Positions 30,923 to 33,960 of a stretch of DNA of 64,000 nt are shown here, one piece after another. The stretch comes from an uncultured Porticoccus sp. (GTDB lineage: Bacteria; Pseudomonadota; Gammaproteobacteria; Pseudomonadales; Porticoccaceae), in the NCBI GenBank assembly GCA_905181945.1, contig CAJIZZ010000005.1:1-64000 (forward strand), given 5' to 3'. Each line of letters begins with the position of its first letter. The first letter of the stretch is position 1. The notes under the pieces were generated by a model. It was not told where the DNA came from, made no database searches, and saw only the letters and a program-made list of their open reading frames with translations. A program made the position numbers and the translations under genes.

Positions 30923-32995
30923 CTATACTTGGCCATAACGCTCGCCGTCCCCAAGCCATCTTCGGATAATTGCTTGGGCGTTTAATGGATGTTGGTCCAA
31001 TAGTAACTCTGCTGATAGTTTGATTTCTGGCAACAAATGACCGTCTCTTTGTAAGTCTGCAATCCTGAATGCCATTTCACCCGTTTGCCTGGTCCCCAGA
31101 ACTTCTCCGGCACCACGAAGCTTTAAGTCCATTTCAGCTATTTTAAATCCGTCGTTCGTCTGGCGCATAATTTTAAGTCGCTCAGCCCCTTGTTGTGATA
31201 AGGACGGGCCATACAACAACACGCAGTGACTTTCTTCTTTTCCTCGCCCCACTCTTCCTCGAAGTTGATGGAGCTGCGCTAGGCCAAGACGCTCAGGGTT
31301 TTCAATCACCATCAAGCTTGCATTTGGGACATCAACACCCACTTCAACCACAGTTGTGGCCACCAAAAGTTGAGTTTTCCCCGCCTTAAACTGAGCAATA
31401 GTAGCAGACTTTTCTCCTGTTTTTTGTTTGCCGTGCGCCAAGCCAATTTTTAGCTGTGGAAGCAAAAGATGCAGTTCTGCTGCAGTCGCTTCTGCGGCTT
31501 GCGCTTCCAGCAGATCAGATTCTTCAATAAGCGTGCATACCCAGTATGCTTGGCGACCATTAGTACAAGCTTTTTGTACCCGATCAATTACTTTCTGTCG
31601 ATTGCAGTCCGCGATAACGACTGTATTAACAGGGGAGCGCCCAGGCGGGCTTTGGTCGATGACAGAGCAATCGAGGTCAGCATACGCGCTCATAGCCAGC
31701 GTTCTGGGAATCGGCGTCGCAGTCATTGTAAGCTGGTGGGGAATTTGGTCGTCATTCCTACCTTTTTCCTTCAAGGCTAGACGCTGATGAACCCCAAAGC
31801 GATGTTGCTCATCAATTATGGTTAACGCTAGATCTCGAAAAGAAACCTCTTCTTGAAATAAGGCGTGGGTCCCAATTACTATTTGCGCAGAACCATCTTT
31901 GATTGCGCCAAGTTGTTGTGTTCGAGCCTGTCCTTTTACTTTTCCTGTAATCCATCCAATTTGAATTCCTAGTGGATTGAGCCACGCCTCAAAAGACTGG
32001 CGATGCTGCTCTGCCAAAATTTCAGTTGGTGCCATGAGGGCGGCCTGTTTCCCCGCGGCTACACATTGAATCGCCGCTAACGCGGCAACGACAGTTTTTC
32101 CTGAGCCAACATCCCCTTGCACTAACCTCAGCATAGGATATGAATTATATAAATCTTTTTGAATCTCAAAACTTACTCGTTTCTGTGCACCTGTGAGCTC
32201 AAATGGCAAAGCATCTAAAAACCGCCCTCTCAGGTGATCTTTATTGCAAAGAGGTGGGGCCTTATGACTTTGAACTGCTTGTCTAAGCTTAAGCAGGCTT
32301 AAATTATGAGCTAGCAGTTCTTCAAAGGCCAGGCGCTGTTGGGAGGGATGCTCCCCTTTATTTAATTGTTCGATGGCCGCGGTGTTTGGTGGTTGATGAA
32401 TAAATTTTAATACAGTAGTAAGAGACGATTTTTTTAATTTTTCTGGAAGAAGCTCTATTAACTGATGTTCGTTCATTAAGCTCAGAACTTGCAAGATAAT
32501 GCCCCGCATCCTTTGTTGAGATATACCTTCAGTTGTGGGATATACCGCAGTCAGATATTGCTGGAGGGGCAAAGGATGGGCTGGATCCAAAAATTGACAT
32601 TCTGGATGGTAAACCTCGAGCCCCGAGCTGCCGATTTTTACTTCACCATAACACCTAAGATGAGAGCCTACTTTTAGATTGTTTCGTAGGGCGCTACTAA
32701 AATGAAAAAAACGTAGACTGATAATCCCTGTGTTGTCCTGAAGCCGACATAGCAGACTGCGACGACGACCAAATACGACGTCACATCCACGGATTGTCCC
32801 CTCGATAACAACCTCTGTGTTTGGTTGCGCGCCTCCAATTGCCGATACACGTGTTCTGTCGATATAGCGTAGAGGCAAATGGAAAAGTAAATCTTGTGTT
32901 GTCTCTATCCCCAATTTGGACAACCTTAAGGCAAGCTGAGCCCCGACCCCATTGAGTTTTATTACAGAAATTTGATTAAGAGACTGACTAGTCAT
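30923..32995 (-). CDS. recG: ATP-dependent DNA helicase RecG
   Basis: Branch-migrating helicase that remodels stalled forks. The 690 residues comprise an N-terminal wedge/OB domain (about residues 60-160) and two helicase domains, with Walker A GDVGSGKTVVA, the DEQH box IIDEQHRFGV, MTATPIPRTLA and the TRG-like tail NDGFKIAEMDLKLRGAGEVLGTRQ. It overlaps the 3' end of oxyR by 4 bases. An oxyR-recG operon is known in pseudomonads, so recG may respond to peroxide. Confidence 0.97.
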   Translation of the reverse strand: MTSQSLNQISVIKLNGVGAQLALRLSKLGIETTQDLLFHLPLRYIDRTRVSAIGGAQPNTEVVIEGTIRGCDVVFGRRRSLLCRLQDNTGIISLRFFHFSSALRNNLKVGSHLRCYGEVKIGSSGLEVYHPECQFLDPAHPLPLQQYLTAVYPTTEGISQQRMRGIILQVLSLMNEHQLIELLPEKLKKSSLTTVLKFIHQPPNTAAIEQLNKGEHPSQQRLAFEELLAHNLSLLKLRQAVQSHKAPPLCNKDHLRGRFLDALPFELTGAQKRVSFEIQKDLYNSYPMLRLVQGDVGSGKTVVAALAAIQCVAAGKQAALMAPTEILAEQHRQSFEAWLNPLGIQIGWITGKVKGQARTQQLGAIKDGSAQIVIGTHALFQEEVSFRDLALTIIDEQHRFGVHQRLALKEKGRNDDQIPHQLTMTATPIPRTLAMSAYADLDCSVIDQSPPGRSPVNTVVIADCNRQKVIDRVQKACTNGRQAYWVCTLIEESDLLEAQAAEATAAELHLLLPQLKIGLAHGKQKTGEKSATIAQFKAGKTQLLVATTVVEVGVDVPNASLMVIENPERLGLAQLHQLRGRVGRGKEESHCVLLYGPSLSQQGAERLKIMRQTNDGFKIAEMDLKLRGAGEVLGTRQTGEMAFRIADLQRDGHLLPEIKLSAELLLDQHPLNAQAIIRRWLGDGERYGQV

Positions 32996-33927
32996 TTATA
33001 TGAAGGACTTGTTGGGCCTGATCTACAGCCAGGCAAAGGATTGCGTTTAATGGCTTCTCGAAGCGCATCAATAGCTTTGTGTCTAGGAAAACTTGCTCTC
33101 CACGCTAATGCGGTTGATCTGCGAAGAGAAAGTTCTTCAAATGGGCGGGTAGTTAGAAAGCTGTCGCTATAGCCTGATCCTGTCGCAGCAGAAAACGGTA
33201 AAATCGTGATCCCAAGCCCTGAGGCCACCATATGGCGAAGCGTTTCTAGCGAGCTGCCTTCAGATTCTGTGCGAATTTTCCCTGGATGCTTGTTGAGATT
33301 TGGAAGGGCTAGTCGGACTTGATCCCCAAAGCAATGCCCTTCGCCTAGCAATAAAACATTTTCATTATCTAGGTCGGTTGATTTTATAGAAGCTTGTTTG
33401 GCAAGAGGGTGTGTTTTTGGAAGCAATAGCACAAACGGCTCAGAATATAGGGGCTGCACAACGACATCAGGGGCATCGAAGGGCAATGCAACAATGATAA
33501 CATCTAGGACCCCGCATCTTAAGCGTTCTCTCAAGGTCGAAGTAAAGCCTTCTTCCACAATGAGTGGCATCTGTGGGACAAACTCTTGCAGGTTGGGAAT
33601 AAAGTGAGGGAAAAGATAGGGGCCAATAGTAAAAATAGCACCCACATGAAGAGGGGTGGCAAGCTGATCTTTCCCTGCAGACGCTACATCCTTTATTTTT
33701 TCTACTTCTTCCAGCACAAGATGCGATTGAGCGATAATTTTTTCACCTAGAGGGGTGATAAAAACTCTATTTTTTGAACGCTCAAATAGTTCAACGCTAA
33801 GTTCTGTTTCTAATTTCTTGACAGCAATACTGAGCGTCGGTTGACTGACGTTGCATCGCTTAGCCGCTTCGCCAAAATGTCGTGATTCTGCAAGAGTGAC
33901 GATATAGCGTAATTCAGTTAAAGTCAT
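32992..33927 (-). CDS. oxyR: Hydrogen peroxide-type LysR regulator OxyR (lacks Cys208)
   Basis: LysR-type regulator with an N-terminal winged helix-turn-helix (FGEAAKRCNVSQPTLSIAVKKLE) and a peroxide-sensing domain. I chose ATG at 33927 (MTLTELRYIVTLAESRHF), which matches OxyR N-termini; a frame open eight codons upstream is less likely. The 311 residues carry the peroxidatic cysteine exactly at position 199 (GEGHCFGDQ), but position 208, the disulfide partner in E. coli, is Leu (VRLALPNL). Other cysteines lie at 25 and 138. Overlap with recG and the sequence make OxyR likely; an OxyR-like relative with a different cue is possible. Confidence 0.9.
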   Translation of the reverse strand: MTLTELRYIVTLAESRHFGEAAKRCNVSQPTLSIAVKKLETELSVELFERSKNRVFITPLGEKIIAQSHLVLEEVEKIKDVASAGKDQLATPLHVGAIFTIGPYLFPHFIPNLQEFVPQMPLIVEEGFTSTLRERLRCGVLDVIIVALPFDAPDVVVQPLYSEPFVLLLPKTHPLAKQASIKSTDLDNENVLLLGEGHCFGDQVRLALPNLNKHPGKIRTESEGSSLETLRHMVASGLGITILPFSAATGSGYSDSFLTTRPFEELSLRRSTALAWRASFPRHKAIDALREAIKRNPLPGCRSGPTSPSYK

Positions 33928-33929
33928 AA

Positions 33930-33960
33930 TTGTTTCTCCGTTTATAATCATAGCTATAAT
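33930..33960 (+). promoter_or_regulatory. Shared promoter region of oxyR and the SDR gene
   Basis: A perfect -10-like TATAAT lies at 33955-33960, 22 bases before the SDR start, with a weak TTGTTT at 33930-33935 (19-base spacer). The short palindrome ATAGCTAT (33950-33957) overlaps it. OxyR sites carry spaced ATAG/CTAT pairs, but here they touch, so OxyR binding is only a possibility. Confidence 0.4.

Follow-up and report, generated by a model that had tools for sequence, protein, structure and literature searches.

A Porticoccaceae OxyR that keeps Cys199 and lacks Cys208, with a probable role in peroxide regulation

Two models of OxyR activation, those of Storz and Stamler, have been debated: whether the Cys199–Cys208 disulfide is needed or modification of Cys199 alone suffices (PMC2881104). 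Published Cys208 mutants of two-Cys OxyRs are impaired, which calls for caution on activation: the C208A protein of N. meningitidis represses but does not activate (PMC2881104), E. coli C208S loses polysulfide induction (PMC6831875), and P. aeruginosa C208S and C296S are both reported, secondhand, to be hypersensitive to H2O2 (PMC5101826). DrOxyR of Deinococcus radiodurans has one of the two switch cysteines and a reported sulfenic-acid mechanism (PMC2225504): it possesses Cys210, the equivalent of Cys208, while its Cys199 equivalent is described as absent (PMC2881104), and a T201C substitution is described as restoring the missing cysteine (PMC2225504). 1-Cys OxyR has been named as a class (PMC3260234). 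No natural OxyR with Cys199 alone is described in the open-access papers that our searches covered.

The oxyR gene considered here lies in a 64,000-nucleotide stretch of DNA (hereafter the window) belonging to contig C5 of a 1.33-Mb Porticoccus genome rated 100% complete (G000). Its product, like DrOxyR, has one of the two switch cysteines, but it is the reverse case: Cys199 is present and residue 208 is Leu, so it does not belong to the Deinococcus type, which keeps only the Cys208 equivalent. It shares Cys199 without Cys208 with N. meningitidis C208A, which, however, is a laboratory mutant (PMC2881104). Compared with E. coli OxyR, it has the same domain order, Cys25, Cys199, T100, T129, H198 and D202, but pairwise identity is 38% over 294 amino acids and Leu208 makes a Cys199–Cys208 disulfide impossible. 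A preliminary description of this DNA had drawn the same conclusion about the switch, and it holds for the surrounding clade, where Cys208 occurs in 0/54 rows. Among solved structures, P. aeruginosa OxyR (4x6g, 4y0m; E 8.5e-106 for 4x6g) comes closest; it has the same fold but contains both Cys208 and Cys296 (PMC5101826); Cys296 is present in 94/118 two-Cys rows and, like Cys208, in none of the 54 clade rows.

Identity and structure of the window OxyR

The oxyR coding sequence (32992–33927, minus strand) encodes a Cys208-less OxyR of 311 amino acids, as assigned by translation, homology and tree. The mechanical open reading frame opens 24 bp earlier, at 33951, but the ATG at 33927 is the better start because homologues begin with MTLTEL and GGAG precedes this ATG; this agrees with the start chosen previously and leads us to reject a wrong start codon as an explanation. 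Translated from there, the peroxidatic Cys199 is a TGC codon (33331–33333, minus strand) in the motif GEGHCF and Leu208, at the resolving-Cys position, is a CTT codon (33304–33306, minus strand), as the preliminary description had counted them. In the multiple alignment, residue 208 falls opposite E. coli C208. The recG gene (30923–32995, minus strand) shares 4 bp with oxyR. This operon overlap had been described as kept, and recG indeed follows oxyR in all 53 clade rows with enough flank (53/53); it is the usual arrangement, found in 196/226 homologues examined.

Both PF00126 (LysR HTH) and PF03466 (substrate-binding) score above the Pfam cut-off. The best NCBIfam model is OxyR NF008361 (PRK11151), at 215 bits against an equivalog cut-off of 329 bits. 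This cut-off does not separate the Cys208-less from the two-Cys type, because the two-Cys OxyRs of Cellvibrio (248) and Halomonas (243) also miss it, while E. coli OxyR scores 633. The AlphaFold model (mean pLDDT 84.6) has P. aeruginosa OxyR as its best structural match; its regulatory domain superposes on that of reduced P. aeruginosa OxyR with a TM of 0.91 and keeps a helix at 199–207. The protein groups with OxyR in both the sequence comparison and the tree, so that an origin outside OxyR, which the preliminary description had proposed to check by tree, is rejected. It retains Cys199 in the GHC motif together with T100, T129, H198 and D202, and lacks only the resolving Cys208 of the classic two-Cys type's switch pair. 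We judge the gene to be a true, selected OxyR orthologue that is not of the two-Cys type.

Most same-genus genomes measure 2–2.7 Mb; G000 is roughly half as large as most of its congeners and holds two LysR-type matches to the query, compared with 5–10 in the others. In one small relative (G006, 1.2 Mb, 87% complete), no LysR-type match to the query was found at all.

Distribution and conservation of the Cys208-less state

We reduced 228 full-length homologues, leaving out partial rows, to 189 distinct sequences, of which 118 contain Cys199 and Cys208, 66 Cys199 only, five neither and none Cys208 only. We also sampled other groups of the same class; the 80 homologues taken there (80 of 148 listed places) comprise 74 two-Cys and six Cys199-only proteins, and none lacks Cys199. 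The combined 269 homologues thus include 72 with Cys199 only and none with Cys208 only, counts that are not an unbiased census because the homologues were gathered by similarity to the window protein.

In a quick LG+G4 tree built without columns 199–209 and containing some long branches, the window OxyR falls in a 54-row Porticoccaceae (Porticoccus/SAR92) clade (SH-aLRT 99) nested among two-Cys OxyRs. Residue 208 in this clade is Leu in 47 rows, Ile in three, Met in two and Phe in two, and residue 199 is Cys in 53 rows and Ser in one. Across the tree, the state of residue 208 changes at least nine times, six of which are forced by well supported branches. Loss of Cys208 is therefore best read as a family-wide ancestral state and not a peculiarity of the window protein, with similar losses recurring elsewhere. 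The Leu208 noted earlier is real, but the earlier account of it was incomplete, as the whole clade lacks Cys208; frame error, sequencing error or chance is excluded because 54/54 members are without Cys208. In the genus, the switch segment also differs in that Gly201 replaces Arg and Arg205 replaces a hydrophobic residue (14 rows each).

A few homologues have neither switch cysteine. The relative G059 (L169) carries Ser199 and Ile208, and in four OxyR-like proteins from Steroidobacter/Lysobacter-type and related genomes (L113, L116, L122 and L124) position 199 is Pro or Ala and position 208 is Phe.

T100, T129, H198, D202, S226 and T229 are equally conserved in the 66 Cys208-less and 118 two-Cys rows; the first four, which we take to be peroxide-pocket residues, are nearly invariant in both types. 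The Cys208-less oxyR is under purifying selection, with dN/dS of 0.011–0.039 in eight congener pairs (0.02 < dS < 1.2). Within part of the SAR92 group, OxyR is repeatedly decaying or lost. Three SAR92-type relatives (G042, G043 and G035; L175, L176 and L177) have a truncated oxyR of 119–135 codons beside recG, which retains roughly the DNA-binding part only, and a fourth SAR92-type relative (G077, L174) has a disrupted copy. The closest truncated pair gives dN 0.115 and dS 0.141; this ratio of ∼0.8, set against the range of the window gene, indicates that such decay looks different from the state of the window gene.

Candidate target promoters

The window genome contains one katG, no PF00199 catalase, two peroxiredoxins with PF10417, and gshA. 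Its KatG (L263, 1192–3474), in common with several copies from congeners, starts with an apparent signal peptide and is possibly periplasmic.

OxyR boxes have a tandem spacing. Upstream of the 201-amino-acid AhpC-type peroxiredoxin of the window genome, the sequence TTAG-N7-CTAT-N7-ATAG-N7-CAAT matches 14/16 bases of the tandem OxyR box (contig C7, 18213–18249) and lies inside a block that is conserved when the 16 genus genomes with this gene are aligned; the E. coli core is given as GATAG-N7-CTATC (PMC5908139). We also sought the peroxiredoxin in 60 more genomes and found it in 4/20 Porticoccaceae lacking an oxyR match at E 1e-50 or better, 22/32 Porticoccaceae that have one and 8/8 two-Cys outgroups. 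The peroxiredoxin and oxyR may have been lost together (e.g. in G035, G042, G043, G028, G029 and G053).

Fifty peroxiredoxin promoters (16 from the genus and 34 further ones) were scanned with a leave-one-genus-out matrix, a box being called at a shuffle P ≤ 0.025. A CTAT-N7-ATAG-N7-YAAT-like box is present in 33/37 Cys208-less and 7/8 two-Cys genomes, that is, in 40/45 promoters from OxyR-bearing genomes versus 1/5 from genomes without detected OxyR (Fisher P 0.0025, the relatives not being independent). The sole box of the latter kind belongs to G006, a congener only 87% complete. The box was missed in five OxyR-bearing genomes (G058, G059, G075, G095 and G313), four of them among the 37 Cys208-less ones. 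Neither G059, which has Ser199, nor its relative G058, which keeps Cys199, shows a recognizable peroxiredoxin box.

For katG, a matrix of 18 peroxiredoxin sites, all from outside the genus, found upstream sites in 9/11 tested genes at P ≤ 0.014, and in 0/4 gshA controls. The katG site of the window genome (score 15.7, P 0.004) is weaker than the peroxiredoxin match and modest, given three sites scoring at least 14 in the 64-kb window, and it was not picked up when katG promoters were scanned with an E. coli-style box. As positive controls for the new matrix, two E. coli promoters were scored: oxyR gave no match (P 0.21) and katG a borderline one (P 0.06). A box in oxyR's own promoter was rejected, the matches being weak and inconsistent. 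A whole-genome four-tetramer scan returned 17 places with at most three mismatches compared with nine for the reversed control, a background too high for a regulon to be named from it; of the four places with two mismatches, three fall in or beside genes without an evident peroxide role. Taken together, the promoter matches point to OxyR boxes at peroxide-defence genes, less surely for katG than for the peroxiredoxin.

Signalling from Cys199 and its alternatives

Given these predicted targets, the conserved pocket, and a Cys199 that is kept where Cys208 is gone, peroxide sensing at Cys199 without a 199–208 disulfide is the simplest reading. We consider it reasonably probable, on sequence grounds, that the Cys208-less OxyR still runs the peroxide regulon, signalling from Cys199 without the 199–208 lock. 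Within the conserved pocket, H2O2 would convert Cys199 to sulfenic acid; either this form or a glutathione mixed disulfide, instead of an intramolecular disulfide, would transmit the signal; the hydrophobic residue 208 would merely fill a core position; and OxyR would act at the boxes upstream of the AhpC-type peroxiredoxin and, less surely, katG. Both chemical forms are compatible with the data, and glutathione is likely available because gshA is present in 17/17 genus genomes. The sequence data themselves show the lost Cys208, the constant Cys199 and pocket, purifying selection and boxes that accompany OxyR; that the protein senses peroxide, which chemical state Cys199 takes, and whether binding activates or represses belong to the part that we infer. 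Of the options listed in the preliminary description, Cys199 acting alone is favoured, while Cys138, Cys25 and a non-peroxide regulator are disfavoured.

The alignment reveals no partner cysteine that is constant across the 54-row clade at any position; the presence of such a partner had been named in advance as telling against the description. Cys138 (33514–33516, minus strand) is private to the window protein and is rejected as a conserved partner, being found in one row only. Cys25 (33853–33855, minus strand), in the DNA-binding domain, is not a specific substitute because every homologue has it (54/54 clade and 118/118 two-Cys rows). Cys301 (33025–33027, minus strand), in the C-terminal tail, was missing from the earlier list of candidate cysteines and is conserved in 14/14 genus rows.

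Cys199 could nevertheless form a disulfide, within one molecule or between two, with a substitute resolving cysteine: Cys301 in the window genus, Cys269 in most of the genus though not in the window protein, and Cys231 in SAR92. These residues are absent from the 118 two-Cys rows and present in 19 (Cys269), 28 (Cys231) and 15 (Cys301) of the 54 clade rows, reaching 13/14 and 14/14 for Cys269 and Cys301 in the genus and 28/31 for Cys231 in SAR92. The tree shows three separate gains of Cys269, each on a Cys208-less background; this residue precedes R270, which aligns with E. coli R266, a residue reported to lie near C199 (PMC2881104). Cysteine gains are also 1.9-fold denser on Cys208-less branches (1.74 versus 0.92 per unit length, P 0.013), but serine gains are raised there too (ratio 1.40, P 2e-5), so part of the excess may be mutation bias. 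Moreover, the window protein has Arg231 and Arg269, its Cys301 tail has low pLDDT in the model and is likely disordered, and Cys199 is the only regulatory-domain cysteine in 5/54 clade rows. Three of the four such genomes with a tested promoter keep the box (G096, G020 and G084, not G095), indicating that no substitute cysteine is needed for box retention there. Lineage-specific cysteines (231 in SAR92; 269 and 301 in Porticoccus) might serve as substitute partners in some relatives, while a general mechanism of this kind seems unlikely to us. Decidedly unlikely is a broader scenario, in which an ancient family-wide Cys199-only class controls peroxide defence and sublineages then gained different substitute cysteines near the pocket (231 in SAR92; 269 and the tail 301 in Porticoccus), re-wiring the switch more than once.

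It is very unlikely, in our estimate, that the protein is redox-blind or repression-only, a reduced-state OxyR that stays bound to its boxes and has lost activation. The behaviour of N. meningitidis C208A (PMC2881104), the repeated loss of OxyR in SAR92 relatives and the modelled resemblance to the reduced P. aeruginosa regulatory domain, with its helix at 199–207, would be consistent with such a role, but AlphaFold cannot report redox state and a redox-blind OxyR would let Cys199 drift, yet 53/54 rows keep it. Only a slim chance is left to Cys199 sensing a different signal, for instance sulfane sulfur or nitric oxide in place of H2O2: persulfidation at C199 is described as possible for E. coli OxyR, but that response needed C208 as well (PMC6831875). 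The predicted targets are peroxide scavengers and the peroxide-pocket residues are kept, which also counts against the non-peroxide regulator proposed earlier, with boxes at the peroxiredoxin and katG promoters.

In evolution, Cys208 was removed a single time at the root of a bacterial family, and on several further occasions elsewhere, with Cys199 kept, the reverse being unseen in the 269 homologues examined. Such natural loss makes the disulfide question testable with proteins that evolved for that state, instead of crippled mutants.
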